From contig CM044955.1 of NCBI GenBank assembly GCA_024516035.1, positions 16,050,079 through 16,114,078 on the forward strand: a stretch of DNA of 64,000 bases. Reading direction: 5' to 3'. Source of the stretch: Bactericera cockerelli (lineage: Eukaryota; Arthropoda; Insecta; Hemiptera; Triozidae). Of this stretch, positions 40,982 through 64,000 are shown one piece after another. The notes below the pieces were generated by a model that was not told the DNA's origin, did not search any database, and saw only the letters and a list, made by a program, of their open reading frames with translations. Position 1 is the stretch's first letter, and every line of letters begins with the position of its first letter. The position numbers were made by a program, and so were the translations under genes.

Positions 40982-43806
40982 CTAGTCTGTAGAGTCCTAT
41001 CCAGTCTTTATCTGATACTTCATCCACAATATTCCACTCAAGATGTACACAGTTGTGAGACATCCAATCCACGAGCAATCTATTTCTCCTGATGTTGTGA
41101 TTAACATACTCATTAGGCAACTTTTTGTAGTTGCTACATTTTTTGAAAAGAGTGCAGCATTCTTCAGTGTATGCACAAGCTGAGGACAGGTCTTGCTGAC
41201 AACTCTGAACTAAGCTGTGGATATCATGGAGCAGAGCTAAGGAGCAGGCATTGTCTGCATCACTTTGGATATTTTCAGGATGCTCATCATTGGAGCACAC
41301 TGATAAGTCTTGTGTAGGCAGTGTGGTTTTGTTGTGAGGCAGCTTCTCTGATTCATCCCCATTGGTAAAATTTTCAATATTACTGTTTCTTATACTGTCA
41401 TCTTGTTTGTGTTCATATAATGCTATGGTAGACACAGCCTTTTCTTCAGTTACATTTATATTGCTAATCTCCTCAGGTTTCACATTATTATTTACAGTAG
41501 TTGGGCTACTTGATATGCTACTCACTGAGTAATCACAACAAGAGAAAGGACCACTGTTGTTGTTATTGGTCTCACTTTCAGCAAGAAAGTCACTTTCATT
41601 TTCTGACTTGCCATTGCTCTTGCAGCATTTTCCAATGCTTTCACCATTTACATGAGGGACCCAGGAGCTGACTGGCTCTTGACCAGGTGTCATATTATCT
41701 TCAACAAGTTGATCTTCACTTGAGATTGATGGCTCAGATTCATAGTGAAGTCCATGAGCAATTGTTTTGACTAGGTATTTGTGATTGTTAGAGACAGTAC
41801 ATTGCACTGATGTTTCATTGTTATTATCATCATTTAAGTCCTCCACGTTGATTTTTTTTGTAACTTTATTAAACTGAAACAGAGAGATGTGGAAGGAAAG
41901 AATTTGAGAACTTCATGTTGGACTATTAACAAGCAATGAATAAAAAGTACATACATACTAGGCACATTAAAAGCAGAAGACCAACAGCATGTATGACGAC
42001 CTAACAGTGAAACATGAAAATATTTAATTTCAGGAGATAACTTCATTTGATTTGTTTAATTACAAAAGCAAAATCATTCAAATTTAAATCATTTCATAAG
42101 GAAATGAACTACAGAAATCACATGAATGTAATAATAGGTAGAGAACTTTGGTGTATTCAACTAAATATTTTGTTTTCATACTGTTTCTTAATATTTCATA
42201 GAAAATCTATTTTCTGGAATGAAAGTAGGACATGAAATACCCTAGCTTTTAAAATTATATTAATAGTTTTCTTAATATGATCAGAATAAACCAGATCAGA
42301 AAACTTAATACCTAACTCATTTGATCTAAAATTAGAAACTATTGCTTCTCACCCACCTATACTAGAGACTTCTGCATTCCACTTTCTCCCTCAGTAGACT
42401 CTGTAAGAAACACCCAGAACTCTTCAATGTTCTTATTTCAATGCAGTAATACAGGTCTTCTTTATCTTAAAGCACATTGATTAAACACCAAGCAATGGGA
42501 TTTCCTAATTTATATAAACATTCAATAAATTTGGCACTTGATTAAACATTTAAGACCATGAGAGATGAGAATTACCAAGAAATTAATTAGCTATCTTGTT
42601 TCAAAATTAAAGGACTTCAATTTCAACACAAAACTATCTCTCCATGAAAACAGAAACTAGATTAACTTGTCATACAGATCTGAGCTAAGAAGGTAAAGCT
42701 CAAACATAGAACACACTATTGAAAACACTATGGATAGTTACGGAAAAGTTGAAATAAGAAAAATAGAAAAACTGAAATTAGGTGATATCTTTATCAGTAG
42801 ATAAGTAGATAGTAGATATGAGTACTTGAGTAGATACTGGATTTCTCTAATATAATTATGTCAACAACTTTAATATTTGAAAAAGTTGCTCAAAGGTAAG
42901 TTTGCTAAGTTCACACATAAACAATTTCAAAGAGGTTAAAAATGGGTGGTCGATGGGAGCTATTTCAAAAAGTGAACCTATAAAGTCCAGTGAAGTGAGA
43001 CCATCACTGGCAATGAATCTTCTCTCATCTGAATGAATTGAAGGTCCCAGTCTACACGCTATGGTCCCAGATAAATTTGATGACAATTCAAACTTACTAC
43101 CTTACAAGGCACTGTGTATTTTCGATATTTAAATTTCGAAATTCAGAAAATGCAACTCATATTCTTTTTTCTTCCACTTGTTTCACAAGAAATTCAGAAG
43201 GATTTAGGATACTCTTATTTAGTGATTTGTGTGATCGTAACAGCAGATGAATGAGTTTGAGTACCACGGATATTGTGAAAACAAAATTACATTCCTGATT
43301 ACTCAAATTTGACTTAAATGAGTGTCCATTTGAACTGGTGCATTCATTTTAATTATGAGATCTTGGTTGTAGTCACTGTGGCCAAGTAGTGCCGCGCACT
43401 TATGCTTGCATCACCCAAGTTGATCTGGATTCGATCCCCAGCAGAGATGGAATTTCTAGTCGGTACTTGGATTTCTGGTGACCACTCATACCTCGCGAGA
43501 AAATTTTTAGTGCTGGCGACATGTTACGAGTAAGAATACGGAAGCTGTTGAAATTTGAAGTTTCGTACTGTTGAGCTACTGACTAAAGTTGCAGGCATAA
43601 AAAAACATACATAGGTAGTTATAACGTTCCCATTATAAGTTTATAATTAATAACTTAATAAGCATCATCCGCATCAAAACCAACCAAAAACTGGGAGTAA
43701 ATTTGAAGTTTTAGAGGCCCTTAGAGAGTTACTAAATAGTTGCTGACGCCCAAGAGAAAGAGAGGGCTGAGTTCACATACTTTACCATTTCCTGTTCATT
43801 TTCCAT
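40982..43806 (-). CDS. HECW-like E3 ubiquitin ligase gene, first two coding exons (partial)
   Basis: Exon 2 (41873 down to 40982) is bounded by an acceptor TCTCTGTTTCAG and a consensus donor (CTAG then GTAAGT). It encodes about 297 residues: acidic, Asn/Ser-rich low complexity, then a conserved-looking end with HLEWNIVDEVSDKDWIGLYR. That last motif resembles the N-terminal SKICH/C2-like segment of HECW HECT ubiquitin ligases (W-x-I, then DWIGLY). A putative start exon (43811 down to 43786, ATG at 43806) encodes MENEQEM. It sits between TTTCTTTTTCGCAG and GTAAAG and splices in phase 0 to FNKVTKKINVEDLN. The HECT and WW parts are not in the window, presumably because later exons lie further left beyond long introns. 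SKICH proteins of the CALCOCO type are an alternative. Confidence 0.6.
41874..43377. other. Intron of the HECW-like gene
   Basis: AT-rich sequence between the putative microexon and exon 2. I see no other coding exon or named repeat in this part. Confidence 0.5.
43378..43565 (+). mobile_element. tRNA-like SINE, family S4
   Basis: TGGCCAAGTAGTGCCGCGCA, B box GGATTCGATCCCCAGCA, then GGTACTTGGATTTCTGGTGA and CCACTCATACCTC. The complement of 47845-47962 matches in the same order. Confidence 0.72.
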
Positions 43807-45459: not shown

Positions 45460-45598
45460 ATGGTTCATAGATTCCCATTCCCAAGTTATTAACCTCAGCT
45501 GTCTCAGTCTACCACACATCATGGGCCGTAAAAAGCAAAAGAAACCCAAGACCTCTGCTACCACAATGACTTATGTGTCTAAAGACAATGATATCACA
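45460..45598 (+). CDS. Zinc-finger gene exon with start codon (plus 5' UTR)
   Basis: The acceptor TTTCATTTCAG precedes 45460, so at least one untranslated exon lies upstream. The UTR opens with ATG at 45460, a 10-codon uORF ending TAA at 45492. The main ATG (45521) follows, with 26 codons, basic and Thr-rich. The donor is ACA then GTAAGT, phase 0. Confidence 0.8.
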
Positions 45599-48500
45599 GT
45601 AAGTATATTTTCATCTCTAAAAAATTTACCTTTATGTATTTAGAGGCAACAACTAATTACTAAATACAAATGAAGTTGAGTATTACAAATGGTGATCAAA
45701 TTGGTGTCATTTGGGATAAAGTACAGATGAGGCTTCTCATTAAGAAGTTTTAGTTCTGATGTTTCAATGATAGAACAATAATGTCAAATATTGAGTGAAA
45801 ACTTAATATGGAGAAAGTCTCCAAGGAGTAGTAAAGTCTTTATTAAAATGTATTTACTTAAACAAGCCGTAAAAATTAAAAGTATTAATGCCAGAACCAA
45901 ACAACCTCAATGATGAGTAAGAGGTGGACTAATGCTGACTCAAAGTAAGTTTGGAAAAAGGGAAAGTTAAAGAAGAAGAAATTTATTTATTTAAACTATA
46001 AACAGGCTTAATTGCCTTGTTCTAATTAATTTACAATGTATTTCCCTAACTAATCCTAGTGAAAAATATATATAAATTCTATCTATTTAGATTATATATT
46101 GTTACATGGCTGTTTGGGTAGATGGGCCAAAAATTACAATAGGTGGAATTATTGCCTGAGGCAATTGAACTGAGTAGTAGAATGATAAATTCAGTTTATT
46201 TCCAGGTTTAGGAGATAAAGTTCTGAATTGGATTAAATCCTATTATAAGCAACAGGACACAACAAGTAAGACTTAACGGACAAATATCTTCACCTGTAGC
46301 ATGTAACAACTTCTCTATATCACAGGGTACAGTGTTGTCATGTTCTTTGTTCAACATTTTTACCCATTTACCCAATGTACCCCAAAAACCCAATGGTACA
46401 ACAATTTACCCAATGTGACCAGAGGGAAATCCTTTCTGTATGCCGATAATGCTGTTATAAGCTACTTGACTAATAACTGGACTCAAACTCATGACATTGC
46501 TACTGACAACATTAAAAATATACTACACTGGTACACAAAGATGTCTTTAAAATTAAACTTAAATAAATCTGACTATATTACATTTTCTATTACCAACAAA
46601 GGACAACCAACTGAATCTAAACTCACTATACAAAATCAATCTAACAATACTTTTACTAAACTCACAAAAACTAAACATGTAAGATATTTAGTAATTACTA
46701 TTGAAGAGAACATGAAATAGACTTACCATATTGACATACTAAACATGAAACTACACCACCTCATGTATGTATTTAATCAATTAAGAAATGTTTGTGGTAG
46801 GAAACTACTTTGAATAATTTGAATCAGACCTTTTCTTTAATTATTTTTTGTTGTTGTTTTTAAAAAATGGAATCATAATTGCAGTGTGCATCAATACAGT
46901 CCTGTGAGACATAACTTCTGCAGGTCCCATGTTAGCTCACAACCTTGTATTGAAGTTTAGTATAGGTACTTGTATTGTAGTTTACCTATAATTATATCTC
47001 TACTTCACAGGTGGTTCCTTTGGATTCATCTGACACACAACCTGAAGAAAAAACTCTTGATCCAGATGAAGCAACAAATATCAAGGAGAGACAATGTAAC
47101 ATGTGTCAGAAGATTATGAAGACCAAGCATGCTCTGAGAGCTCACATGGCAGTGCATCAGGACCGGACGGTGCAGTGTGACGAGTGTGATATGATGTTCT
47201 CTAATAAGAATGCACTGAACAGGCACAAGCAATGCAAGCATATGGATGAGAGCTTGCGGCCTTTCCCTTGCCACATGTAAGACAAAACACATAATAACTT
47301 AATGCACTTTAATTCTCTAGTCTTACAATAATTACAAAATTTTCTATTTTATTTTATATCAGCTTAAAACCCCTGTTGCATTATTTGAAACAAAGTTCTT
47401 AAACCAAAATTGCTTGTAAATAGAGACGCTTTAGTCCTATGCAAGAGTATAAATAATTTGTTGTTGTTAATGTAGCCAGATTGGCTATAGCTGGAAGGGG
47501 TAATGATGGTCTCCAGCTGACTCTATTTCAAAGTTGGCTCGTCCTGAACCACATATTTCTATGTGCGATGAACCATTGTGAGGATTTGAACTTTTTCTTC
47601 ACAAATCATTAAACCCTTAAGAAACTGCTAACCTTCTCTGTTTATGGTCTTCTAGCAAGATAATAAAATTACCTACTTGTAATAATAATGTATTAAATTC
47701 CAACTAAATATTTTTCTCATATATCCAGGTTCAACTGTAATGAGAGAATGTTATGGATACAATAAATATTATGTATGTGTTTCTCTGTGGGATTATGTCA
47801 CAATTTCAGTTAGTAGTGCAGAATTATAAGACTTTTCTAATATCTCATTTTTCCTCAGAGGTATGAGTGGACTGTATCCAAGTACAGAGTAGAAAAAATT
47901 CTACCGTGCTGGGGATCGAACCCAGGACACTGTGTGCAAGCCTCGTGCACTACCCACTTTTGTTGAGCACCTAATCTCTTGTCTTCAGAGGAAATTTTTC
48001 TTGAGCTTCCTTTAACCCTTAATTATTTTTTTGTTTGTAATTTGTATTCTGGCTGGGGGACTATAAACAGGGAGTAGACCAGCAGTCTGGCTGGGGGACT
48101 ATAAACAGGGAGTAGACCAGCAGTCTGACTGGGGGACTATAAACAGAGAGTAGACCAGCATTAACATGGTTCTGGGGGCCCTTGTCATTTATTAGCCTCC
48201 TTGTAAAGACAGTGGTAGAAGAGCTGACTCATTCCTCCACTGTCTGGCTACCATCGTTCACGATGACGCCACCCTATGATGATGATGAATTTGTATTGCA
48301 TAACTCTTTGACCTGTGTTAACATATATTTTAATTAATGCACAGTAAATAAATACTCGTAATTTTTCCGTAAATTAAAAGTATTAATGCCAGAACCAAAC
48401 AACCTCAATAATGAGAAAGAGGTGGACTAATGCTGACTCAAAGTAAGTTTGGAAAAAGGGAAAGTGAAAGAAGAAGAAATTTATTTATTTATTTATTTAA

Positions 48501-48762
48501 ACTATGAACAAGCTTAATTGCCTTGTTCTAACTAATTTACAATGTATTTCCCTAACTAATCCTAGTGAAAAATATATATAAATTCTGTCTATTTAGATTA
48601 TATATTGTTACATGGCTGTTTGGGTAGATGGGCCAAAAATTACAATAGGTGGAATTATTGCCTGAGGCAATTGAACTGAGTGGTTGAATGATAAATTCAG
48701 TAAGTTTAATGCTGACTCAAAGTAAGTTTGGAAAAAGGGAAAGTGAAAGAAGAAGAAGAAAT

Positions 48763-48794
<32 letters not shown>

Positions 48795-51700
48795 ACTATA
48801 ATTTTTTTTGCGGCAGGTGTGAGAAGCGCTTCCTGAACAAGTCGCATCTGGCCGCCCACGTGAAGACACACACGGGCGAGCGGGACGTCACGTGCGGCCT
48901 CTGCTTCCAGTCGTTCTACTCCAAGGCGGACCTGGTGCGGCACATGAAGGGGCGCCACCTCAACATCCGCAGCTTCCAGTGCCACCTGTGCGCCCGCGGC
49001 TTCTTCCGCAAGAGCTACCTGAAGCTGCACCTGCTCACCGTGCACATGTCCGCGGTGGACGAGGCTGCGGACGGCAAGGCGCGGCTGTTCACCTGCCGGT
49101 GAGTCGTTCTCTTTTCCTCTGGTTTAACATCGCTTTAGCATTCTGGTTTAACCTTCCCTTTATATTCTCGAAGCCCTAAAGTTCGTGAAAAGAAACAGTG
49201 CCCTTTTCGATAGTGTTGGCAAGTTTAGTTCAGTCTGAAGATCGGATCATTTAGTTCTTAGTCAATCAAAAGAACTAGTTCTTTTAAGTCGTTCATTTAG
49301 TTCAGTAGTTTAGTCAAAGATCACAGCATGATTGATTGTGGTTATCTGATTATTGTCTGTCCCAGTAGCTCAGTGGTAAAGGCGGCACTCTGTGAATCCA
49401 CAGGTTCCAGAGGTCGTGGGTTCGAAACCCAGCCGGGACATGACAAGTTATCCTCCCGTTTGGGATTTTTACCACATAATAATATGTCTTGGGCCTACTG
49501 CTAGAATAATGGGACTTTAATAGTCCTTATCGGGTAGTATAAATAAGGTGATATTATTATTATTATTATCTTTTTCTGGTTTAACACATACACGACCGGT
49601 ACCATTTTGAGTGTATGTACGCATGGGACCTCTATATCTGAGCATTACCCCAAACTTCTGTACATTCTGCTATCGACAGCTACTGCAAGAAGCTGTTCAA
49701 CTCCCGCACCTCCTGCTACACGCACGAGCGCACCCACAACCACCAGGGCGGCGACCAGCGCGCCCTCTGCATGATCTGCGGCAAGACCTTCTCCCGGAAA
49801 TAGAAATAATAAAAAAAGAGATTCATTCCATCTTCTACTCTTTCCATGTATAAATTAATTTCGACTTCGGGTTCCTTTTTCTTCGTCGCTTTATGAGCCC
49901 ACTTCTGCTCTTTTCTTTCCTTATCCTATTATAATAAGAAATGTATTGTATTCGTCGAAAATTTGACCTACCCATTTTTTCACATTTCTGGACGAATCAA
50001 AGTCCCAGGATACCAAAAAAGGTGTTTTCAGCCATTGTTCCGTGCCCTTCGTCTGTCTGTCTGTGTGGATGTATGTGAACACGATATCTCGAGAACAGTA
50101 AGAGTTAGGGACTTGAAATTTGGTATGAAAGTTAATTTTATAAACCTTCTGACTGTCTGGTTCCTCTGCTGTCGACAGCTACTGCAAGAAGCTGTTCAAC
50201 TCCCGCACCTCCTGCTACACGCACGAGCGCACCCACAACCACCAGGGCGGCGACCAGCGCGCCCTCTGCATGATCTGCGGCAAGACCTTCTCCCGGCCGT
50301 CCGGGCTCAAGAAGCACCTGGAGAAGCACGCGGGCCCGCCCAAGCTGCGCTGCGAACAGTGTGAGCGGCCCTTCTACCACCCCGGCTCCCTCAAGCGGCA
50401 CATGCTCACGCACAACCGACCTGACCCGGACATCTGCCAGGTATCTGATCTTAAGTTTTGTCTGATTCTTTCGGTGCGTAGTTTATTTTCCTCCCCCTCC
50501 ATATTTTCTTCAAAGAAACCACATAATAGATAAATAGAGCAGGTAACTATGTAGGTATAATTGAATCAAACACCTCGCCCAAAGTGTGAAGAACGCCCAT
50601 TACAAAGAAAGAGATATATTTTACTAGACGTTCGCCCGTGCTTTGCAACGGGACTAAATTTCAAATTTACTAAGGCATAGCCGTACTGCTGGACAGCAAT
50701 GACTCTTTGAACTTTTTAAATTTCTGGACAAAGCGATAATGGTTTTGGGGGGGTCAATTCTGAGACATTTTGGATCTCTTACCGTTTTGGCTAAACAACT
50801 CCGGACAAACAAACAAACATAGGTAGGTAGGTAGTCCTTTTTTCTGTTTTATATATATTATAGAGATAATAATAATAATAATAAGCCCGGTAAACGGAGC
50901 TAGAGCTTCGAACCCTACTGACTTCGCAACATTTCCTATTTAAAATTCGAGACAAAACTTTGTCCAGCGTTGAGCAACAAAAGTCATTCCATACCCTCTT
51001 ACTGATCTCTTTTTTTGTTACAGGTATGCGGTACTGTATACACCAATAGGGATGCATTCAAGCGGCATCTGAAGAGACACGTAGCGCGGGGAGACATAGA
51101 CCAGCTGCCACGTGTTGAGAGAGAGGTGCCGCAGGTAAGTTGTAAGATTAGAATAAATTTGAACATTTGGCTAACGGTAAAGTCCCTAATGAAACACGAG
51201 CTAATGCTCCATTAAGTCTATTTTAAACCTTGACTGATTTTAGTCTCCATTCAGTAGCAAAATTACAATTGTATTACATTTCGCGTGAAAAGTCTTCTGA
51301 TAGGTCAGAATAATGTACTAACTGATACAGGGTGGAGCCCGGAAGACGAATGGAAGAAATAAGAAAAACAAAACTAATATTATTGAAAAACTCTTAAACT
51401 TTTTATTTTTTTCTCACATTGAACAGCTTATTTGGCAAATGGGCAACGTCACACTGAATACACTCATTAAGCCGTTTTCCAACGTTTTCGTGAACTCTCC
51501 CGAGCATTTCCACAGGAATTTCGGCGATACTGGCCCTAATATTGTTTTCGATGTCTTCTATCGTCCAGGGACGATCATTGTAAACCTTGGATTTGAAGTA
51601 GTCCCAAAGGAAAAAATCTGTTGTGAAACCAAACGAGTGTCCTTTTCTTTAATTCCGCCATTAGTGACTCGACGGTAACAGTTAAATAAAAATCAATGTC

Positions 51701-54700
51701 AAATTCGTAATCAGCACCTCAAAATCATTGGATTTGATATGTCACAAACCCCATCTATAATGAATAATAAAAAAGATTATCTAAGCGCAACCTCAAAAAT
51801 ACCAGTAAATTGGGGCCATGCGCAACGCCTTGCGTTCCTACCAAATCGTCTCCCGCGCTCTACCCTGTATAATCTACCATTCTACCAATTAAATAAATTA
51901 TGAGGCTTTGCTTATTCTCTGTAGTTGTGCTTTATGGCCCGGACTATTATTGGGAAACTCAAAGGTGTATTTTTATTTCAACACAATAAATAAATAACAT
52001 CACAAGACTTTTCATTACAATAGAGGTAGTTTTTTTTGTGAAACTCCAGTTATTTTGTAAGCTAGGATGTCCTTCATTATTGCTTGAATGTCCAAGGCAA
52101 AAATCGAAAGTTGTGTATATACTTGCTGTACTCCTGTTGTTACTCTGAATGAATCGGTTTTGTGATTTTCAATTTGTACAGGCAAGTTTATTCTGATTCA
52201 GTGATTTGAGGATTGCGACCGTCAGTCAAAAGCGTTGCTTACATCAATAAATACTATGGCTAAGGTTTATGTTCTGTTCCAAAACTTTCACAATTTGCCT
52301 GGTTATAAAGGAAGGCCATATCCATAGTGAATCGTCCAGCTTTAGACTGAATTTAAGTTCACATTGTGTGTCTTTCAGTATCTTGTCTATATGAGGTTCT
52401 AATCTGTTGTAGAGTAGTCTTGCAAATGCTTTTGCAGGTACGTATGGAAGAGATATTCCTCGAGAGTGCATTTTGTGTTATTATTATTATTTCATTTTGG
52501 TTTCCTCAGAACACGTGAGGCTTGCATTTCTGGCCCTACCCAGGCTAGGTGATGTTAATGTGGGTAGCTTTTACGATTCCAAACAAATGGAGGGTAAAAA
52601 CCTCGTCCTAAGCAGGACGTTAAATCAAAATAGAATCGTTGATGTTATGAAGGGCATCCAGCCGTAAAAAATGTGTAAAACCAACCAACATAAAAAAAAC
52701 ATACATTTACAATTAAAATTCTCTGTTTGATCTTAGTCTTTAGTCCTATATCCTAATTATTTACATCTTGTATTCTACTCAGATCAGCAAGATGCAAGCT
52801 CTCATATCTCAGGGTGTGGATCTGGACGAAATTCTCAAGACGTGTAATGTGGAGGTGGTGGAGCTCGGAGGCAAGAACAACAGTTGGCGAGCCAGGAACA
52901 AGTTGGCAGACGACATGTAAGTAGACCATATTCTAGAATTCTAGTTCTTTTCAAACAGTTGAAATGAAATCCAAGTACTATTGGACTTAAGTCCTATTCA
53001 GCCATTGTAAATAAGGTCTGACAAACTAGACTAGATCATGTGCTGAGCCCAAGTCCTATCTGGTTAGTGTAATTAAATTTCTTGTGAATATTTATTTGTA
53101 ATATAAAAAAGAAGTCTTTTTGGATATTAAGAAAGCTTTTGGTCCTGTAATAAACTAGAGTATGAGAGTGATACAAACCGTTACAATTGATAGAAACATC
53201 AGGGACTATACATAGGAAATATGATTTAATATTAAAACCACAGTGGAAACTGACGAAGAGTTTGATATAACCAGGTTTGAGACAAGGAGGAGTTCTCTCG
53301 CCCTTAATGTTCATCAATCACCATCTGAAACATTCAAAATTATCAAGATCTGAGACTTTCAAATTAGTACTCTTTGCTGAAGACTTACTTTTAGCGTGAA
53401 TCTAAAAAAAAAAAAATCCTACAGATATACCTAACTGTGAGGGAATAAGATAAAGCAGAAAATGATGGCTTCGTATTCAGTATAGAAAAAGGCCAAGTTC
53501 TAATATTAGATCAAGCAAGTACATACAGTGACAGGGCAAGTGATACATAATAATCAACCATTAAAGCATTGAAAAATTGAACCAGAGTGTTATGATAATA
53601 TCAAAGAATGGAGCACTAAACAAAGAACTGGTAAATAAGATACAACAGGGTGTCGTTTCTATGGAGTGGTTAAGGATTTTATCTGTTAAAAGTTATCCTC
53701 AACATAAGATAATGTAAAAACCATTTTAAATCAAAATTCAAGCAATAGAAATGAGAGTCCATTGGAGTAGATATAACCCGTAAATCACGGGTTTGTGTCT
53801 ATCCGTTATGGTTCCTTATAGGTACGGTAATGGATAATATAAATATAAAAGCAAAAGCTTTTCCTTGCAAAATTTGATAGAATTAGTTCATAAAGTTTTA
53901 ATGGATGGATATTTATAAAACTGACCTTTCCTATTCATTTGAAGCATTGTATTTCCTTTCGCTCACAAGCAATTGATCCATTCAAGTTAAAGCTATTAAT
54001 AAAGAGAAAAAGGTCAGTTTTCTGAAGATCCATGCAAATATCTTTTACTGCCAAAAAATGAAAGCATTCGCTTTTTTAATTTAATGGAAAAGAAATTGCT
54101 CTCAAAACTTTATGAATAACGGCTGAAGAGAAAAGCTTTTATGGCCCATTGATAGGCCATATTATTTTAACTTGATTTTCTTATACTGTTCTTCTTTTAC
54201 ACAATTTCTCAACAATTATTATTAATTCTTTCTTCAGCTCAAAAAAGATTACCTATATTCCTATGAAGATGCTAATACTGTTTTATAATAATGAGTAGAC
54301 AAGCAAATCAACGCAAAAAGATTATTTAAGGTACCTTTTATTTCAAGAGAGTGAAAACTTAATATAAACCCAGAAACAATTTATTAACAAAAAAAAAAAA
54401 AAAAAAAAAAAAAACGAAGTTTTCCAAATGTGCATGTGATGTAATTTACACAGGTCACATGAGGACAGATTTTTTATAACTTGTGTTTGATAATAAATAG
54501 TAATAATACAATCTTTTACTACTGCTCTTCCTCCCTACATCCAGGATTGAAATGAGCCACAGATTTGCCAAGTGGATGAATGAAGTAGATAAAAACAACA
54601 AGGCAGTCACCTCCCATGTGCAAGATAACGCCTGGATGATCAGCTATCGTGTACCTTCAGAGTATCAGTTTCCCGTAGAGTCCCTTGGGATGATGAACCA

Positions 54701-56729
54701 CCTGGTGTATTCGGTGGTTAGCCATGACTTCAAGTCCCTTGTGCTAAAACTTTCTCTGGTGGATGCCTCAGACAATGATTCGGAGGCTATCCGGACAAGC
54801 CTGATATTCTCGCTCAAAAGTTGCCTGAGGCTGGAGGATGAGTCTGACATCTTTCAGAAAGATGTTAGTGTGGAACTATTCTCACCCGTGACCGATATCG
54901 ACATTCCCACGTATGTGGATGAGATACCAGAAATTAAACAAGAGCTCGTTGGCGGTTACCCACAGGTTTTGTTCCAGTGTATGGAGATTACTGCAGACAT
55001 GGAGGTCGCCCAGATAGATCTAGACCAGGACGTTTACGTTGTGAGCATTGCTCTGGAGAGGAACATGAGAGAAGTTTTGAAGCCTTTACAAATTGTGCCA
55101 CGAGGCCCACGAGAGAATCATATAGGCCTAGAGAAAGGATTTGATGAGTTTGAGTCAAATGCACACGCACCCCTCCCCACTGTACGTTCCACTAAGAAAG
55201 ACAAAGACTTGAGTGAGTTCCGTGACGTAAAACACAACATCGTCGAGTGGATGGGCAACATTCAGGAGGATAGTGAACAGTTAGAAGAGATCGTGTCTCA
55301 GACGGAGCCCTTTACCTATGTTGAAGAGCTGGAACAAAAAGCAGAAGTTGACGATCCAAATATGGATCCATTCGACGATCCATATGAAGACACAGCAGAC
55401 CCTGTGGAGCAGCCGAGTGATTCTGAACCGGAGCTGAAACCAGTGGTGCAACTGATAGAACCTAAAGTAGAACCCGACGTACCAGACGGCTATGATGAGA
55501 ACAAGGAGAATAAAAAGAAGAAGAGGAAAAGAAAGAGAGAAGTGTCGGATAGTGAGGAGGAGGAATATGTAGAGAGAAGGCAGAAAAAGCGAGGAAGAAA
55601 GAAAAAGATGAAGAGGGTGATGACAACAAAGAAGAAAAATGTGAAGGTGGAGATAAAAAAAGAAGTGGATCAGATGGACGAAAAGTGTGTCTCATGGAAT
55701 AATGTGCAGAAGATGACCGGTGAGTTCATCTGTTTCCACTGCGACAAGCAATCCGCCTCCAAGGCTAATCTCAGGAGTCACATCCGCTCCATCCACATGC
55801 TGGAGAGATCTTGCTCGTGCGACATTTGTGGCAAGAGCTTCCTCGATAAGTCACGCATAGAAAGGCACATCAAATATGTTCATCTTAAGATTCGGAACTT
55901 TCAGTGCGCCTCGTGTGTATGGTCTTTTTACACGCGTGCCGACCTGAATCGACACGAGCAGCGACACGCTGGAATCAGACCCTTCCAGTGTCACCACTGC
56001 TCCTGGGCTTTTGTGCGCAAGAATGATCTTAAATCCCACCTTGTAGTTCACACCGGGGAGCGAAATTACATGTGTTATTTGTGCGGAAAGAGATTTGGCA
56101 CGCGCTCCGCCCTTTTCACGCATGTGAAGCGGCATTCAAAAAAGAAGAAACCTCCGCAGTCTCAGCGGACTTTCGTCAACGGTAAGCGGACTTACGTCCC
56201 CATGGAGCCCGTCAAGTGTGATCAATGCGACAAGGCGCTGAGCACAAAGCAATCACTTGCCCGACATGTCAAACTGGTACATGAACAGACACATAAACGT
56301 CTGAAACCACGGGTACAGAAGCAGTGGCAGTGTCCTTGTTGCGAGCTCAGCTTTAACCACAGGACCTCTATGCAGCGACACATGTACAAGTTTCATGAGG
56401 ATTCCAATCTGCTGAAACAAGTGCAGTGCCGAGTGTGCGGTAAGAAACTTCTAGATGAGGCATGCGTCGTGCGGCACATGATCAGGCGACATCCTGACAA
56501 CTGCGACGATATAGAAGCAATGAATGCAGCCGTAGCCAAGTCATTGCAGCGACATATCCCTTGTCCAATCTGCAAGCGCAAGTTCCTCAGGGAGAAAGGA
56601 CTGCAAAAGCATATGGCAGAGAAACATTTATACAAGACTGAAGAGTACATGGAGTACCCACATTCCTTGCCCCCACCTGAGGCTCTGTACAGTGAGACCG
56701 AGAAGAAACCAAACCTACTTCTCAACTAG
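45521..56729 (+). CDS. Multi-exon C2H2 zinc-finger protein, isoform using terminal exon A
   Basis: I joined coding exons 45521-45598, 47011-47276, 48817-49098, 50179-50440, 51024-51134, 52783-52916 and 54545-56729. All introns are GT-AG and phases agree at every junction. The protein starts MGRKKQKKPK. Shared exons encode nine C2H2 fingers, the first CNMCQKIM with HMAVH and the ninth CQVCGTVYTNRDAFKRH; finger 3 is split by an intron inside CHMC. A linker (QALISQGVDLDEIL) leads into the last exon, which adds about 727 residues with nine more fingers: 18 in all. No BTB or ZAD domain is visible. It is probably a nuclear DNA-binding regulator; target and role are unknown. The last exon is one of three tandem alternatives. 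Confidence 0.85.
45860..46191 (+). repeat. About 330-bp dispersed duplicate, copy 1
   Basis: It is nearly identical to 48368-48702 (shared TTAATGCCAGAACCAAACAA, GGTGGACTAATGCTGACTCA, GGCTTAATTGCCTTGTTCTA, TGGGCCAAAAATTACAATAG). It lies in intron 1 of the zinc-finger gene. Possibly a LINE 3' end in reverse; class unresolved. Confidence 0.85.
46195..46730 (+). pseudogene. Reverse-transcriptase relic of a non-LTR element
   Basis: In shifting frames it reads LNWIKSYYKQQ, then NFSISQGTVLSCSLFNIF (motif B), then LPNVTRGKSFLYADNAVISY (motif C with YADN for YADD) and ILHWYTKMSLKLNLNKSDYI. At least one frameshift and loss of a catalytic Asp show it is dead. It lies in intron 1 of the zinc-finger gene. 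Confidence 0.85.
47011..47276 (+). CDS. Zinc-finger gene exon: fingers 1, 2 and start of 3
   Basis: The acceptor TACTTCACAG and donor CCACAT then GTAAGA bound 266 nt. It encodes an acidic leader (VVPLDSSDTQPEE), CNMCQKIMKTKHALRAHMAVH-type finger 1, finger 2 CDECDMMFSNKNALNRH, and PFPCHM, the start of finger 3. If the intron is retained, the codons ATG TAA end translation at once. Confidence 0.88.
47461..47660 (+). repeat. Dispersed repeat R10, copy 2
   Basis: The same ordered landmarks as 12985-13200 (TGATGGTCTCCA, GAACCACATATTTCT, TTAAGAAACTGC, TTCTAGCAAGA). Confidence 0.65.
47845..47962 (-). mobile_element. tRNA-like SINE, family S4, minus strand
   Basis: The complement reads GGGTAGTGCACGAGGCTTGC, GGGTTCGATCCCCAGCAC, TGTACTTGGAT and CCACTCATACCTC, in the same order as 43378-43500. 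Confidence 0.72.
48048..48160 (+). repeat. 38-bp minisatellite, three units, same family as 20.8 kb
   Basis: Three head-to-tail units (TCTGGCTGGGGGACTATAAA, then CAGGGAGTAGACCAGCAG) with the same 38-bp period and sequence as the array at 20784-21235. Confidence 0.92.
48368..48702 (+). repeat. About 330-bp dispersed duplicate, copy 2
   Basis: Near-identical partner of 45860-46191. An extra partial repeat of its AATGCTGACTCAAAGTAAGT segment plus an ATTT-repeat tract follows at 48707-48793, right up to the next exon's acceptor. Confidence 0.85.
48817..49098 (+). CDS. Zinc-finger gene exon: fingers 3-5 (GC-rich)
   Basis: The acceptor TTTTGCGGCAG and donor CTGCCG then GTGAGT bound 282 nt. It completes finger 3 (CEKRFLNKSHLAAHVKTH), then CGLCFQSFYSKADLVRH and CHLCARGFFRKSYLKLH, and starts finger 6 (FTCR). 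Third codon positions are almost all G or C, unlike the flanking exons. Confidence 0.9.
49363..49567 (+). mobile_element. S2 SINE, full length
   Basis: GTCTGTCCCAGTAGCTCAGT, GGGTTCGAAACCCAGCCGGG, then AATAATATGTCTTGGGCC and an ATT tail; in an intron of the zinc-finger gene. Confidence 0.9.
49680..49803 (+). pseudogene. Partial duplicate of the finger 6-7 exon with immediate stop
   Basis: It is identical over 118 nt to the first part of the exon at 50179 and keeps an acceptor (GCTATCGACAG). After CTCCCGG it diverges into AAA TAG. Spliced in, it would end the protein after CMICGKTFSRK. It is either a decayed duplicate, an alternative terminal exon, or an assembly artefact. Confidence 0.75.
49917..50148 (+). 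repeat. Dispersed repeat R5, 3'-truncated
   Basis: It starts CTTTCCTTATCCTATTATAA and runs through GAATCAAAGTCCCAGGATAC, TCTGTCTG and GACTTGAAATTTGGTATGAA. It breaks off just before the exon at 50179. Confidence 0.85.
50179..50440 (+). CDS. Zinc-finger gene exon: fingers 6-8 (GC-rich)
   Basis: The acceptor GCTGTCGACAG and donor TGCCAG then GTATCT bound 262 nt. It gives finger 6 (CRYCKKLFNSRTSCYTH), 7 (CMICGKTFSRPSGLKKH), 8 (CEQCERPFYHPGSLKRH) and ends DICQ, the start of finger 9. Phase 0 at the 3' end. Confidence 0.9.
50618..50885 (+). repeat. Probable LINE/SINE 3' tail, RTE-like
   Basis: CTAGACGTTCGCCCGTGCTT, GCAACGGGAC, then AACAAACAAACA, a GGTAGGTA run and ATATATTATAGAGATAATAA. This combination resembles RTE-type tails in insects by general appearance only. 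Confidence 0.45.
51024..51134 (+). CDS. Zinc-finger gene exon: finger 9
   Basis: The acceptor TTTTTGTTACAG and donor CCGCAG then GTAAGT bound 111 nt (37 codons, phase 0). It completes CQVCGTVYTNRDAFKRH and adds the linker VARGDIDQLPRVEREVPQ. Confidence 0.9.
51328..51867 (-). mobile_element. Deleted mariner-like element with TA duplication
   Basis: The inverted ends CAGGGTGGAGCCCGGAAGAC and the complement of GTCTCCCGCGCTCTACCCTG are flanked by TA on both sides. The minus strand (about 51645 down to 51403) encodes a transposase C-terminus: DFFLWDYFKSKVY, then IPVEMLGRVHENV, ending NVRKK stop. An inverted R5 fragment (51650-51830) fills the rest. An IS630-Tc1-mariner relic in an intron. Confidence 0.82.
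52490..52680 (+). mobile_element. Composite SINE body with RTE-like tail
   Basis: CCTACCCAGGCTAGGTGATG, TTAATGTGGGTAGC, GGAGGGTAAAAACCTCG, AGGACGTTAAATC, then AAGGGCATCCAGCCGTAAAA. It shares its body with the 5S-derived SINE but has a different tail; no 5S head is visible. Confidence 0.68.
52783..52916 (+). CDS. Zinc-finger gene last shared exon (linker)
   Basis: The acceptor TATTCTACTCAG and donor GACGACAT then GTAAGT bound 134 nt. It encodes ISKMQALISQGVDLDEIL, ending WRARNKLADD plus the first two bases of a Met codon. The phase fits all three downstream acceptors, each beginning with G. Read through unspliced, the next codons are ATG TAA. Confidence 0.85.
53085..53400 (+). pseudogene. Reverse-transcriptase relic in the last intron
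   Basis: Across frames it shows FLDIKKAFGPVIN (motif A), PGLRQGGVLSPLMFINHHL (motif B) and LVLFAEDLLLA (motif C, Glu for the first Asp of FADD). The part after AAGCTTTTGG recurs at 57088-57355. Confidence 0.8.
54391..54414. repeat. Poly(A) run
   Basis: About 24 A in the intron before terminal exon A; much shorter in the paralogous position at 58457. Confidence 0.85.
54545..56729 (+). CDS. Terminal exon A: novel domain plus nine C2H2 fingers
   Basis: The acceptor CTCCCTACATCCAG precedes 54545. With the upstream AT the first codons are M-I-E-M, so the ATG at 54552 is internal. About 310 residues of unknown fold come first (SEYQFPVESLGMMNHLVYSV onward; IKQE and IKKE fit the SUMO consensus). 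An acidic then Lys/Arg-rich NLS-like stretch follows (near residues 315-375), then nine fingers from about residue 394: CFHCDKQSASKANLRSH, CDICGKSFLDKSRIERH, CASCVWSFYTRADLNRH, CHHCSWAFVRKNDLKSH, CYLCGKRFGTRSALFTH, CDQCDKALSTKQSLARH, CPCCELSFNHRTSMQRH, CRVCGKKLLDEACVVRH, CPICKRKFLREKGLQKH. The stop is at 56729; AATAAA at 56837. Confidence 0.9.
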
Positions 56730-56836
56730 AAATCCAACATGCAACCTGTGAGCTTCTTGTTAGTCAGATTATCAACTTAAAAATTAATTTTTGTTTTTTG
56801 TTTTTCGTTTTAAACATAACCGTTCAGTAAATAAGG

Positions 56837-56842
56837 AATAAA
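56837..56842 (+). terminator. Poly(A) signal AATAAA for terminal exon A
   Basis: A canonical hexamer about 108 bp after the stop; the paralogous position after exon B reads ATTAAA. Confidence 0.7.
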
Positions 56843-57087
56843 GATTTATTTATAAACCTCATGGTTTTAGGACTTCGGAAATTTTGGTGTCTTAGGCAAA
56901 TGGTGGAAAACATTATGAGAGTCGACAACCATATTGTTGATAAATTCTTCCAATCTAAGAAAAATATTGATGAATCTATCGGTGGTGCAATTTAGCTCAC
57001 AAATTTAAATGGTTTGAGACTGAATTGATATTTTCGGATGTCATGTTAATTGATATTTTTAGATGTCATTATAACTAATTTAATAAG

Positions 57088-57355
57088 GAAGCTTTTGGTC
57101 CTGTAATAAACTAAAGTATGACAGTGATACATACTGTTAGAATTGATCAAAACATCATGGATTGTACATAGGAAATGTGATATAATATTAAAACCAGAGT
57201 GGAAACTGACGATGAGTTTGATAAAACTAGGCTTCTGACAAGGAGGAGTTCTCTCGCCCTTACTGTTCATCAATCGCCCTCTGAAACATACAAATTTATC
57301 AAGATCTGAAACTTTCAAATCAGTACCCTTTACTCAAGATTTACTTTATGGTTGA
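57088..57355 (+). pseudogene. Duplicated reverse-transcriptase relic (intron before exon B)
   Basis: It is homologous to 53128-53400, starting at AAGCTTTTGGTCCTGTAATA. Motif B remains as QGGVLSPLLFI and motif C has decayed (FTQDLL). The motif A sequence left of AAGCTTTTGG is missing, which marks the duplication junction. Confidence 0.8.
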
Positions 57356-58594
57356 ATCTATAAAAAAAATTACAGGTGTTTACCTAAATGTGAGGAAATA
57401 AGAAAATGATTGCTTCGTATTCAATATAGAAAAGAGCAAAGTTCTAAAATTAGATCGAGCAAGTACATACAGTGACAGGGCAAGTGGTACACAATAATCA
57501 ACCATTAATCCAGTGGAAAATTGAACCAGGGTGTTATGATATCATAGAATGGAGCACTTAACAAAGAACTGGTAGTTAAGATACATAGGGGTGTCGTTTC
57601 TATGGAGTGGTTAAGGATTTTATCTGTTTAAAGTTATCCTCAACATAAGATAATGGAAAAATCATGTTTGTTAAAATTCAAGTAATAGAAATGAGAGTCC
57701 ATTGAAGTGAGTAGATATAACCCGTAAATCACGGGTTTGTGTCTATCCGTTATGGTTCCTTATCGATAATTTTTTTAGATTAAAGAGAGTTTCACGGGTA
57801 AACTCAACGAAAAAAACGATGCAAACTAGTTTCATTCAAATGCGCTAAACCGTTACAAAGTTACGGTAATGAATAATATTAATAACTTTTGCTTGCAAAA
57901 TTTGATAGAATTAGTTCATAAAGTTTTGATAGCAATTGCTTTTATTCTTTAAAAGTAAATGGAAGATGGATATTAATAAAACTGACCTTTCCTTTTGAAG
58001 CATGGCATTTCCTTTTGCTCACAAGCAATTGATCCATTCAAGTTAAAGCTAATAATAAAAAGGAAAAAGTCAGTTATATGAAGATCTAAGTTTGTATGAT
58101 TTACTGCCAAAAAAAAATCCCATTTTCTTTTTTGATTGAAAGGAAAAGCAATTGCTTTCAAAACATTGTGAATAACGGCTGAAGAGAAAACCTTTTCCTT
58201 TTATGAAAATGGCCCATTAATAGGCCATATTATTCAAACATAATTTTCTTTTGCCGTTCTTCTTAAACAATCTCTCAACAAGTATCATTAATTCTTTCTT
58301 CAGTTCAATAGAGTTTATCTATATTTCTTCTATGAAGATGCTAATACTGTTTTATAATAAAGAGTAGACCAGCAAGTTAACCCAAAAGGATTCTTGAAGG
58401 TACTTTTATTTCGAAAGAGTGAAAACTAAATTCAAAACCAGAAACAAATTATTCACAAAAAAAACAAAGTTTTCCAAATGTGCATGTGATGTAATTTACA
58501 CAGGTCTTATGATGTCAGATTTTTTAAAACTTGTGTTTGAAAATAAATAGTAATAATACAATCATTTACTACTGCTCTTCCTCCCTACATCCAG

Positions 58595-60749
58595 GATTGA
58601 AATGAGCCACAGATTCGCCAAGTCGATGAATGAAGTGGATAACATCAACAAGGCAGTCAACCCCCACGTGCAAGATAACTCCTGGATCCATCATTTATCT
58701 TCGGAGTATCAGTTTCCCGTAGAATCCCTTGGGATGATGAACCACCTGGTGTATTCGGTGGTTAGCCATGACTTCAAGTCCCTTGTGCTAAAACTTTCTC
58801 TGGTGGATGCCTCAGACAATGATTCGGAGGCTATCCGGACAAGCCTGATATTCTCGCTCAAAAGTTGCCTGAGGCTGGAGGATGAGTCTGACATCTTTCA
58901 GAAAGATGTTAGTGTGGAACTATTCTCACCCGTGACCGATATCGACATTCCCACGTATGTGGATGAGATACCAGAAATTAAACAAGAGCTCGTTGGCGGT
59001 TACCCACAGGTTTTGTTCCAGTGTATGGAGATTACTGCAGACATGGAGGTCGCCCAGATAGATCTAAACCAGGACGTTTACGTTGTGAGCATTGCTCTGG
59101 AGAGGAACATGAGAGAAGTTTTGAAGCCTTTGCAAATTGTGCCACGAGAGAATCATATAAACCTAGAGAAAGGATTTGATGAGTTTGAGTCAAATGCACA
59201 CGCACCCCTCCCCACTGTACGTTCCACTAAGAAAGACAAAGACTTGAGTGAGTTCCGTGACGTAAAACACAACATCGTCGAGTGGATGGGCAACATTCAG
59301 GAGGATAGTGAACAGTTAGAAGAGATCGTGTCTCAGACGGAGCCCTTTACCTATGTTGAAGAGCTGGAACAAGAAGCAGAAGTTGACGATCCAGATATGG
59401 ATCCATTTGACGATCCATATGAAGACCCTGTAGAGCAGCCGAGTGATTCTGAACCAGAGCTGAAACCAGTGGTGCAACTGATAGAACCTAAAGTAGAAGC
59501 CGACGTACCAGACGGCTATGATGAGAACAAGGAGAATAAAAAGAAGAAGAGGAAAAGAAAGAGAGAAGTGTCGGATAGTGAGGAGGAGGAATATGTAGAG
59601 AGAAGGCAGAAAAAGCGAGGAAGAAAGAAAAAGATGAAGAGGGTGAAGACAACAAAGAAGAAAAAAGTGAAGGTAAAAGAAGAAGTGGATCAGATGGACG
59701 AAAAATATATCTCTTGGAATAATATGCAGACGACGACAGGTGAGTTCATTTGTTTCGACTGCAACAAGCAATATGCCTCTAAGGCTAACCTCAAGAGTCA
59801 CATCCGCTCCATCCACATGCTGGAGAGATCCTGCTGGTGCAACATTTGTGGCATGAGCTTCCTCGGTAAGTCACGCATAGCAACGCACATCAAACATGTT
59901 CATCTTAAGATTCGGAACTTTCAGTGCGCCTCGTGTGAATGGTCTTTTTACTCGCGTGCCGACCTGAATCGACACGAGCAGCGACACGCTGGAATCAGAC
60001 CCTTCCAGTGTCACCACTGCTCCTGGGCTTTCGTGCGCAAGAATGATCTTAAATCTCACCTTGTAGTTCACACGGGGGAGCGGAATCACATGTGTAACAT
60101 ATGCGGAAAGAGATTTGGCACGCGCTCCGCCCTCTTCACGCATGTGAAGCGGCACTCAAAGAAGAAGAAACCTCCGCAGTCTCAGCGGACTTTCGTCAAC
60201 GGTAAGCGGACTTACGTCCCCATGGAGCCCGTCAAGTGTGATCAATGCGACAAGGCGCTGAGCACAAAGCATTCACTTGCGCGACATATCAAGCTGGTAC
60301 ATGAACAGACACATAAACGTCTGAAGCCACAGGTACGGAAGCAGTGGCAGTGTCCTTGTTGCGAGCTCAGCTTTAACCACAGGACCTCTATGCAGCGACA
60401 CATGTACAAGTTTCATGAGGATTCCAATCTGCTGAAACAAGTGCGGTGCCCAGTGTGCGGTAAGAAACTTCTAGATGAGGCATGCGTCGTGCGGCACATG
60501 ATCAGGCGACATCCTGACAACTGCGACGATATAGAAGCAATGAATGCAGCCGTAGCCAAGTCATTGCAGCGACATATCCCTTGTCCAATCTGCAAGCGCA
60601 AGTTCCTCAGGGAGAAAGGACTGCAAAAGCATATGGCAGAGAAACATTTATACAAGACTGAAGAGTACATGGAGTACCCACATTCCTTGCCCCCACCTGA
60701 GGCTCTGTACAGTGAGACCGAGAAGAAACCAAACCTACTTCTCAACTAG
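58595..60749 (+). CDS. Terminal exon B: paralogue of exon A
   Basis: Same acceptor (CTCCCTACATCCAG) and phase as exon A, 4050 bp downstream. It encodes 717 residues from the splice site, with short deletions relative to A (GPR after VPR; DTAD near the acidic stretch). It is nearly identical in the N-terminal region and fingers 4-9. It differs in fingers 1-3 (CFDCNKQYASKANLKSH, CNICGMSFLGKSRIATH, CASCEWSFYSRADLNRH). The VKEE after the Lys-rich run keeps a SUMO-like site. Stop at 60749; ATTAAA at 60889. It has an internal ATG (58602) that could mimic a stand-alone start; I prefer the spliced model because copy C lacks that ATG. Confidence 0.88.
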
Positions 60750-60825
60750 AGATCCAACATGCAACCTGTGAGCTTCTTGTTAGTCAGATTATGAACTTAA
60801 AGTTAGTAATTGTTTTGTTTTGTTT

Positions 60826-60828
60826 TTT

Positions 60829-60859
<31 letters not shown>
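60826..60859. repeat. Poly(T) run after exon B
   Basis: A T-rich tract of over 30 bases in the 3' UTR; only a short T-rich segment exists at the matching place after exon A. Confidence 0.85.
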
Positions 60860-60866
<7 letters not shown>

Positions 60867-60888
60867 CATAATCGTTCAGTAAATAAGG

Positions 60889-60894
60889 ATTAAA
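60889..60894 (+). terminator. Poly(A) signal ATTAAA for terminal exon B
   Basis: A common variant hexamer at the position matching AATAAA after exon A. Confidence 0.55.
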
Positions 60895-61296
60895 AATTTT
60901 TTGGTGTCTTAGGCAAATGGTTGAAAACCTAATGAGAGTCGACAACCATAAAATCGATGATAAAATCTCTCGATCTAAGATAAAAATATTGATGAATCTG
61001 TGTGTGGTGGAATATAGCCCACAAATATGATTGGTTAGAGACTGAATTGATATTTTTGGATGTCTTGTTAATTGATATTTTGGATGTCATTTTAATAAAC
61101 GTTTCTGCAAAAATGTATTTAAGATGCATTGATAATAAGATGAAAAAAGTACTGTACTAAAATATCAAATTTGCTGGTTTCTAGGGCACCAAAATTTGAG
61201 CCTGGTACACACTCACATTACTCGTTCTCAAGACTATTTTGTGGTTTTAAAACGATTTCCTCCTTTCTCTTGGTCACTTAATCCCTATCCTTTTTT

Positions 61297-62015
61297 TACT
61301 TTCCTTACCCTATAATTAGGAAATGGATTGTATTGGTCGAAAACTTGACCGTCCCAGTTTTTCAAATTTCTGGACGAATCATAGCCTCAGGATACCAAAA
61401 AATTGTTTTTGGCCATTGGTCCGTGTGTCTGTCTGTCTGTGTTTGTGTGTGAACACGATATCTCAAGAACGGTAAAAGCTAGAGACTTGAAATTTTTTAT
61501 GGAAATTATTTTATACACCAAACAAACCACGAAACTTTTGGTTGAAATCGCCTGCACTCTGTCTGGCTGTGTGTGAGTGTGTCTGTAAACAAGTTATCTC
61601 AAGAATGGTAAGACTAGAGATCTGAAATTTGGTATGTAGATCTCATTCATGGAGAGGACGCGGCGTTTGGCGGTTCTAGCTAAACGATAAGAGATACCAT
61701 AATTTATAAGAACACCTTTTTCTTAAAATCAAAAAATATTAGCGGTTTACTTAGATTATTTTTTTGATATCTTGAACTTTTTGGAACTCGGCCGCAATTT
61801 ATCGGTATTTTCAAGGGTTCCCATTAGACCAACTTTTTTTTTTTAATATTTATCATATATGGGGTTGTGACTTATCAAATCCAATGTTTTTGTTGTGCTG
61901 ATTACAAATTTGACATTTATTTTTAGCTAACTGTTACCTATGAGTCACCAGTGGCTTTTGGTCCTGTTCCCATTCTTAGTATTATGATAAGAAGAGTCGT
62001 GTGATGTTTACACCA
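61297..62015 (+). repeat. Dispersed repeat R5, near full length, diverged
   Basis: It starts TACTTTCCTTACCCTATAAT and runs through GAATCATAGCCTCAGGATAC, GATATCTCAAGAACGGTAAA and a partial internal repeat of the same segment at 61590. It ends GTCGTGTGATGTTTACACCA-GATTTTTC. It lies between terminal exons B and C. Confidence 0.85.
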
Positions 62016-62028
62016 GATTTTTCTGCTC

Positions 62029-62440
62029 TGTATTATTGGATGTCAGGGGTCTACTCATACTTCCTGAGAAAAACACAGTAACTGCTTTAATATGAGCAGC
62101 AACCAGTTCATTATGTGCAAAAATAATATATTAGGATATTCAAGGAAAAGAAAAGGCCTATAATTATCCACTACCAACTTTAAATTGTGACATATTAACA
62201 CAAAGAAACATATTTCTTTATTATAATTATTATCATGTGTCGAGGGGATTCACATTTATATCAACTGTATATTTCTTGAAAAATTAAGTCCAGAGTTGGC
62301 CATTCACCTCACTAAACTTGTTTTTGTGATAAAACTAGAATGAGTATTTGCTAAATATACAGTGCCCTCGTTTCTCAACACTTCCCATAACTGTATTATT
62401 GGATGTCAGGGGTCTACTCATACTTCCTGAGAAAAATCGA
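62029..62440 (+). repeat. About 46-bp direct repeat, copies 364 bp apart
   Basis: CTGTATTATTGGATGTCAGG, then GGTCTACTCATACTTCCTGA-GAAAAA, occurs at about 62029 and again at about 62393 with no mismatch I could see. Confidence 0.8.
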
Positions 62441-62653
62441 GTAGCTTATTTTGCATTTTCTACCTTGCACATTTCCCAAAGAAAAATTGGAAGCAACACC
62501 CCAACAACATCAAACAGCAGCCATTCAAAACTGAGCCTTCTTCTTATGGTGTCTATCCCCGGTTCGTATACTGGCTATCATGTTAGCTATTTTGACTTTA
62601 CGGTCTGCTGTTAGGAAGAGTTGTGTTGTTGTCTGGTTGAACCGTGTTCTTAA

Positions 62654-62803
62654 CACTTAGACGACCGGGTGTACCACCGGTGGTACACGCACGTTCGTAC
62701 GGAATGGACCGGGTGTACCACCGGTGGTACACAATGTCGGAGAGCCGTATTATCGCCGGTCCCACAAGAGAATTCACGAAAAACCATGCCGGTCGTCTAA
62801 GTG
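62654..62803. mobile_element. 150-bp piggyBac MITE with perfect ends and TTAA
   Basis: TTAA (62650-62653 and 62804-62807) flanks perfect 15-bp inverted ends CACTTAGACGACCGG. Inside, the 20-bp palindrome GTGTACCACCGGTGGTACAC occurs twice (62669-62688, 62713-62732). It has no coding capacity and looks young. Confidence 0.92.
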
Positions 62804-63850
62804 TTAAGTTTTTTATCCATCAAAAATCAAGGAAAATTATGGGGAAAGCTGAAAAAACGATTGCACTTCGAGATTTGCTCTCGTGGAGGCCAGAACAAGA
62901 ATTCTACTTCTCAAATAAGCAATCTATTTCCAACAATTGAGACTCATTCTAGTTTTATTACAAAAACAAATATAAATGCACCACCCTACTGTACATATTA
63001 ATAAGGTCACCATAGTTAGTGTTTTGTACAATAAATTAATTGTATATAAAGTAGCTACATGAATTTCAGTCTAATCTTTTTGGTATATTTTACATTTATG
63101 GATTTTTTTATGTGATGATATAAATACAAATGTAAATTTACAAATGTAATTTGGTAAAATTAAATGATCTAGTTTCCTTTATTCTCTAATATACAGGGAT
63201 ATAAATAATAATTGGACAATGAGGGAAGTGATACTTTTGCTGTAGTAGCTTTTGTACTAGCAATCTGTACAATAGGGAGGTCTAGGGAGCAATCAACTTC
63301 TGTTGTGTTTTTGCACAGATCTTACACCTTATGTTAAAACAATAGCTGAGCGAGTACTGCGTTTCCTTGATGATGTTGAGAAACTCTGGTTGAAGTTGAT
63401 GTTTCAAAGTGATTTTAAAACATAAACGATTGGCGTAAAAGTAGGTACTGCACACAGAAAATTGTAAGAGAAAGCTTATAATAAGAAATCTATTAGGGGC
63501 CCTAATTTAGGGTACTTTAAATAAGACCATCATGGCTGGGGAAAAATTAGACCAGAAAATGAATTTTTTTTTGACAAAAAAGTACATAATATATGTTGGA
63601 ACTTTTTTGTTAAAAGGATGAGAACAAATTGAAAACAAACCTAAAACAGAAAGTACTTAAAGAAAAGCTCTGAATTAGAAAAAGATGCTTCAAATAGGAT
63701 GTGTTAAATTTCAAGTGTTGTTTTTTCTGTAATTTAAATATTTACATAGGTTCACCTGTGTAAATAACGACAAAAAATTTAAGTTGTGTTTGAAAAATAA
63801 AATAAATAATAATACTAACTCTTACTACTGCTCTTCTCCCCTACATCCAG
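62804..63850. other. Intron between terminal exons B and C
   Basis: AT-rich. The last ~100 bp before 63851 are homologous to the intron ends before exons A and B (AATAAATAATAATAC, TACTACTGCTCTTC, CTACATCCAG). I see no other gene. Confidence 0.6.
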
Positions 63851-64000
63851 GATTCAAGAAACTCATGAGCATGACAAGTGGATCCTTGATGTGGATAAAA
63901 TCAACAATTCAGTCACCTCCCACGTGCAAGATAACTCCTGGATGACCAGCCATCGTGTATCTTCGGAGTATCAGTTTCCCGTAGAGTTCCTGGGGATGAT
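63851..64000 (+). CDS. Terminal exon C: third paralogue, cut by window edge
   Basis: The acceptor CTACATCCAG and phase are the same. With the upstream AT it reads M-IQETHEHDKWILDVDKIN, then NSVTSHVQDNSWMTSHRV, then SSEYQFPVEFLGMM, to the window end. It aligns to exons A and B throughout but lacks the in-frame ATG of their MSHRF segment, so as an independent gene it would have no start before the WMTSH Met. Confidence 0.85.

Follow-up and report, generated by a model that had tools for sequence, protein, structure and literature searches.

Organization of the locus

A C2H2 zinc-finger gene followed by tandem copies of its terminal exon lies on the forward strand of a 64,000-nucleotide stretch of the genome of Bactericera cockerelli (Hemiptera; Triozidae; assembly GCA_024516035.1, contig CM044955.1, positions 16,050,079 to 16,114,078), referred to here as the window and numbered from its first nucleotide. 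The front half of the gene consists of six exons (45521–52916, +) with GT-AG borders, which together form a single open frame of 377 codons encoding nine C2H2 fingers and ending in phase AT (Table 1); six shared exons with nine fingers and this end phase had been described in an initial annotation of this DNA. Behind these six exons are three terminal exons, A, B, and C, all of which are in frame with exon 6. Terminal exons A and B, each of about 2.2 kb, begin with G and are open to their own TAG; their acceptors share the last 26 bases, ending ...CTACTGCTCTTCCTCCCTACATCCAG, and the acceptor of C, which is close to these, ends ...CTACTGCTCTTCTCCCCTACATCCAG. The similarity of C to A and B covers the exon start and an acceptor block of about 78 columns, no further upstream intron being aligned by blastn; C is cut by the window edge before its stop, and only the exon start is seen. 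At least two homologous, in-phase terminal exons with their own stops (A and B) are therefore present behind one shared exon set, in agreement with the annotation, which had predicted three downstream exons behind near-identical acceptors and at least two complete nine-finger C-termini. Poly(A) signals had also been proposed for both complete exons; that of A is a canonical AATAAA, and at the matching place behind B there is ATTAAA, with an AATAAA further on.

Using the strict pattern C-x2-C-x12-H, the protein ending in A has 18 fingers, nine in each half; a looser pattern gives 19, one of which is an overlapping register. In a Pfam scan (E<=0.001) of the shared half and exon A, all matches are to zinc-finger families, with no BTB, ZAD, KRAB, or SCAN domain, supporting the previous statement that there is no shared BTB end of the kind seen in lola and mod(mdg4). 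For the linker (the first 382 residues of exon A), structure prediction from seven sequences gave a mean predicted local distance difference test score (pLDDT) of 36.6 and a predicted template modelling score (pTM) of 0.15, values too low for any conclusion on its fold.

Table 1. Exons, tandem units, and associated signals of the zinc-finger gene in the window.
Feature	Position	Strand	Observation
Shared exon 1, with start codon	45521..45598	+	MGRKK... aligns with psyllid protein starts; GT donor
Shared exon 2: fingers 1 and 2, beginning of 3	47011..47276	+	Open frame between AG acceptor and GT donor; orthologous
Shared exon 3: remainder of finger 3, fingers 4 and 5, first Cys of 6	48817..49098	+	
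Truncated copy of acceptor and first 118 nucleotides of exon 4	49666..49797	+	99% identical to 50165-50296
Shared exon 4: greater part of finger 6, fingers 7 and 8, beginning of 9	50179..50440	+	
Shared exon 5: remainder of finger 9	51024..51134	+	
Shared exon 6, ending in phase AT before gtaagt	52783..52916	+	
Tandem unit 1: exon A with part of intron 6 and 3′ flank	53125..57074	+	Collinear blocks against 57081-61095
Terminal exon A: 727 amino acids, fingers 10-18, stop TAG	54545..56729	+	Orthologous to second half of psyllid proteins
Poly(A) signal AATAAA of A	56837..56842	+	
Tandem unit 2: copied part of intron 6, exon B, 3′ flank	57081..61095	+	
Terminal exon B: 717 amino acids, nine fingers, stop TAG	58595..60749	+	
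ATTAAA behind B, at site matching AATAAA of A	60889..60894	+	Further AATAAA at 61094
Acceptor region of C	63780..63850	+	Intronic part of 78-column block that matches the one of A at 83% identity
Start of terminal exon C, open frame, first 150 nucleotides up to window edge	63851..64000	+	

The gene structure, the phase compatibility of its exons, and the tandem duplication are directly established from the DNA. A tblastn search of the window with the whole protein found no second set of exons 1–6; otherwise it returned a truncated piece of exon 4 and weak alignments between fingers. The frame of this partial copy of exon 4 is closed by a stop at 49801; used as an exon, the copy would give a truncated protein. 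A repeat element (49873–50146, with a relative at 61261–61519) sits between exon 4 and its partial copy, which may therefore be a long target-site duplication. In the duplicated introns, a 55-nucleotide element is identical in both copies (53765–53819 and 57709–57763) and can fold into a strong hairpin (60-nucleotide stretch, -18.3 kcal/mol); the rest of the window holds matches to it of at most 10 nucleotides.

Divergence of terminal exons A and B

Comparison of the coding sequences of A and B shows differences at 77 of 2151 aligned bases, with 29.5 synonymous changes on 438 sites and 47.5 nonsynonymous changes on 1713 sites (binomial p 0.00036 against neutrality). The deficit is clearest in codons 351–560, the finger-bearing segment with the most divergent bases, where there are 24.5 nonsynonymous changes on 499 sites and 17.5 synonymous changes on 125 sites (p 0.00066); in the three other segments it is not significant (p 0.13 to 0.28). 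The coding indels, of 6, 9, 9, and 6 nucleotides, are all multiples of three (4 out of 4); the intron has 7 such indels out of 14, and the 3′ flank 2 out of 6. Neither exon has a premature stop; when 77 neutral changes were simulated (n=5000), 4% of the outcomes were stop-free. At 56 columns where the two differ, gaps included, the state found in orthologues is present in A only at 13, in B only at 13, in both at 6, and in neither at 24. Because A and B alone each keep the orthologue state at 13 columns, neither copy appears to be decaying, and on these comparisons both look protein-coding, without signs of decay.

Divergence between the copies is uneven. Between the duplicated introns there are 172 differences in 1378 aligned bases (12.5%), with 14 gaps; between the 3′ flanks there are 34 in 309 bases. 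When the coding sequence is divided into four equal parts, bins that were fixed after the positions of the differences had been seen, the silent differences number 6, 3, 15, and 3 (chi-square p 0.0025). Two similar segments, also selected afterwards, have a silent divergence of 2–3% (7 changes on about 283 sites), which is well below the base divergence of the introns (p 2e-8). A conversion test based on the longest run of silent identity gave p 0.06; the longest run of identity at all bases gave p 5e-5, but this value is confounded by purifying selection. Partial gene conversion between A and B would be the simplest reading of this pattern, although constraint on silent sites may be an alternative.

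In C2H2 fingers, the helix positions that contact DNA are -1, 2, 3, and 6. Of 36 such predicted contact residues, four differ between A and B: those at -1 and 6 of finger 11, at -1 of finger 12, and at 2 of finger 15. With so few contact residues and coding bases altered, the suggestion of clearly distinct DNA-binding arrays in the copies was overstated; the predicted contacts fit better with closely related arrays in which a few fingers are altered.

Orthologues in other psyllids

Protein searches, which reach only relatives with common short exact words, identified 30 proteins with exon A as the query, two Cacopsylla melanoneura entries (1100 amino acids) covering 92–93% of it and the other 28 at most 53%. 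A profile built from the full protein together with one of these entries, P0001, matched 44 proteins at E<=1e-60 among 3049 candidates, including six psyllid proteins with coverage of 67–100%: P0001, P0002, P0031, and P0033 from Cacopsylla, P0032 from Cyamophila willieti, and P0034 from Diaphorina citri. The other 38 have coverages of at most 30%, except for a protein of the beetle Pyrocoelia pectoralis with 90% coverage at 23% identity. Searching with four terminal-exon sequences returned the same six proteins at E<=1e-30, among at least 7990 candidates scored. No relatives of the locus were present among the 51 stretches of viral contigs or the 4 stretches of genome contigs that fit the search pattern.

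The six psyllid proteins (1100–1210 amino acids) align from MGRKK to KPNLLL, across the junction of exon 6 and the terminal exon. This directly establishes the orthology of the fused form and supports the original view that the two halves belong to one gene; since the proteins align over both halves, the shared half joined to a terminal exon is, judging from these alignments, the normal gene in psyllids. These matches also point to a probable origin of the window within Psylloidea.

To which of the three terminal exons this ancestral form corresponds is suggested by a block of 13 residues at the exon start, picked by hand as the stretch that is gap-free among A, B, C, and four orthologues (P0034, P0031, P0032, and P0001, in that order). 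Matches to these orthologues number 7, 8, 8, and 7 for C, compared with 6, 5, 5, and 4 for A and 5, 4, 4, and 3 for B. As the copy whose start matches the orthologues best, C appears to represent the ancestral terminal exon, in front of which A and B were probably added later.

Within Cacopsylla, the front halves of P0001 and P0031 are different (39 of 88 columns identical in exon 2), and their terminal regions are identical over large parts. Most of the front half of P0031 recurs in P0033, which differs from it in parts of exon 3 (76 of 96 identical) and exon 4 (79 of 86 identical), and also in the linker and at the start of the second array (first two fingers). These mosaics were considered as proof of splice choice and rejected. 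The borders of the identical blocks (P0001/P0031 and P0031/P0033), protein ends excepted, are inside exons, for example at position 162 of exon 3, position 240 of exon 4, and position 556 of the terminal exon, pointing to turnover through duplication and conversion, or to chimeric transcript assembly, rather than to splicing. The Cacopsylla entries are presumably derived from transcriptome assembly. The 1100-residue C. melanoneura proteins P0001 and P0002 are the same apart from five clustered linker residues and one near the end; these differences could be due to alleles, conversion, or assembly.

Proposed splice choice and alternative explanations

Splice choice among the terminal exons is proposed as the best explanation of the locus, with at least two of the acceptors presumably used. 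On balance, and by a narrow judgement, it is probable that this is one gene with a single nine-finger 5′ module and at least three versions of the terminal exon, from which splice choice gives 18-finger isoforms. Each transcript would join the exon 6 donor to a single acceptor, and poly(A) use would determine the choice; a transcript ending at the poly(A) site of A would take acceptor A, and read-through with skipping of A would lead to acceptor B or C. Exon A or B would supply a long acidic/basic linker, nine fingers, a stop, and a poly(A) site. The isoforms would have the first array in common and differ in the start of the linker and in a subset of second-array fingers, and may differ in DNA binding.

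Several observations weigh against this proposal. Terminal exon A, being first in order and having the canonical AATAAA, could be the sole copy used, and conversion between A and B, of which the segments with 2–3% silent divergence between introns differing by 12.5% may be a trace, could keep an unused copy looking intact. The apparent ancestral status of C depends on 13 residues. The different front halves in the Cacopsylla family suggest whole-gene duplicates there, not one shared front. In addition, a crude test of the unduplicated start of intron 6 against the 300 nucleotides before each acceptor found no RNA pairing of the docking-selector type, the observed value being reached by 51, 19, and 35 of 100 dinucleotide-block shuffles for A, B, and C, respectively.

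The first two of these points are accommodated if a single terminal exon is used, either the first or the ancestral distal one, and the others are kept by conversion or are too young to have decayed. In favour of this, parts of A and B are near-identical at silent sites, with an uneven distribution, although their introns are much more divergent, and A is the copy closest to the donor. It is nevertheless doubtful, as nonsynonymous change is held down in codons 351–560, all four coding indels are in frame, and C retains its acceptor and its frame in the visible part. It is improbable that B and C are instead separate genes, with their own promoter or first exon in the stretches before them, or starting at an ATG near the exon start. 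In both A and B the third codon of the exon is an in-frame ATG, and there are whole-gene duplicates in Cacopsylla, but the ATG is missing at that site in C and in the four orthologues compared, the stretch before B is mostly a copy of intron 6, and no homologue of exons 1–6 was found between the copies. An assembly artefact, in which two haplotypes have been placed in tandem, would account for the presence of a 4-kb unit twice in direct tandem; this is very improbable, however, given that the intron divergence, with its 14 gaps, is judged high for alleles, that exon 6 is single, and that C is a third, more distant copy.

Other features of the window

Elsewhere in the window, the long open reading frames at 126–4485 (-) and 14249–16600 (-) resemble, by eye, the proteins of non-long-terminal-repeat retrotransposons. 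The upstream minus-strand open reading frames at 40950–41909 and 20699–21208 have no Pfam match. A related 38-nucleotide tandem repeat is present in two arrays (20788–21202 and 48048–48160), and no transfer RNA was found in the window using ARAGORN with the bacterial code.

Comparison with known systems

The layout of this gene has precedents, and what is unusual is the presence of finger arrays in both halves together with the absence of BTB. Oyster AOX is not known to have zinc fingers. In oyster AOX (CvAOXA/CvAOXB), the terminal exon 10 is tandemly duplicated and used alternatively, the distal copy being conserved and the proximal one derived (PMC5589949); the assertion that a layout such as the present one had never been described was therefore overstated. 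Common upstream exons and, to judge from the start of C, probably also a conserved distal with a derived proximal copy are features that the two systems share. Unlike the gene described here, oyster AOX has two copies of a small exon (41 amino acids) of an enzyme, its transcripts have been demonstrated, and one of its forms contains both duplicated exons, without skipping of the first (PMC5589949).

Zinc fingers are carried by the alternative ends of lola, in which the common 5′ part encodes a BTB domain. Both lola and mod(mdg4) of Drosophila have common 5′ exons and alternative 3′ ends, and at least 31 isoforms and trans-splicing are described for mod(mdg4), in which most of the 3′ regions have a FLYWCH zinc-finger motif and the common 5′ exon encodes the BTB domain (PMC4667647). 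The likeness to these genes is in the alternative ends on one shared front (PMC4667647); in contrast, both halves are C2H2 arrays in the present gene, no BTB was found, and copies A and B arose recently and are near-identical. The hemipteran ZF271-like/APEZ genes, a subfamily marked by tandem C2H2 repeats with a penta-peptide linker, are C2H2 genes without other domains that form recent whole-gene tandem clusters (PMC6444547). The present gene is also a hemipteran C2H2 gene without other domains that has undergone recent tandem duplication, but only its terminal exon has been multiplied, rather than whole genes (PMC6444547). Among the literature matches listed, which were to open-licence papers only, there was no psyllid gene with such a layout.

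A more speculative extension of the proposal, and an unlikely one at present, is that the locus is a growing cassette array, in which a fixed nine-finger module would be combined by splicing with at least three swappable ones, perhaps with more past the window edge, partial conversion would homogenise the linker and tail, the first fingers of the second array would be left variable, and the isoforms would read different composite sites. If at least two acceptors are used, this gene would be a young case in which duplication of an exon, not of a gene, diversifies a DNA-binding protein. The steps of duplication, conversion, and finger divergence remain legible in the DNA, and related psyllids may retain the single-exon form for comparison.
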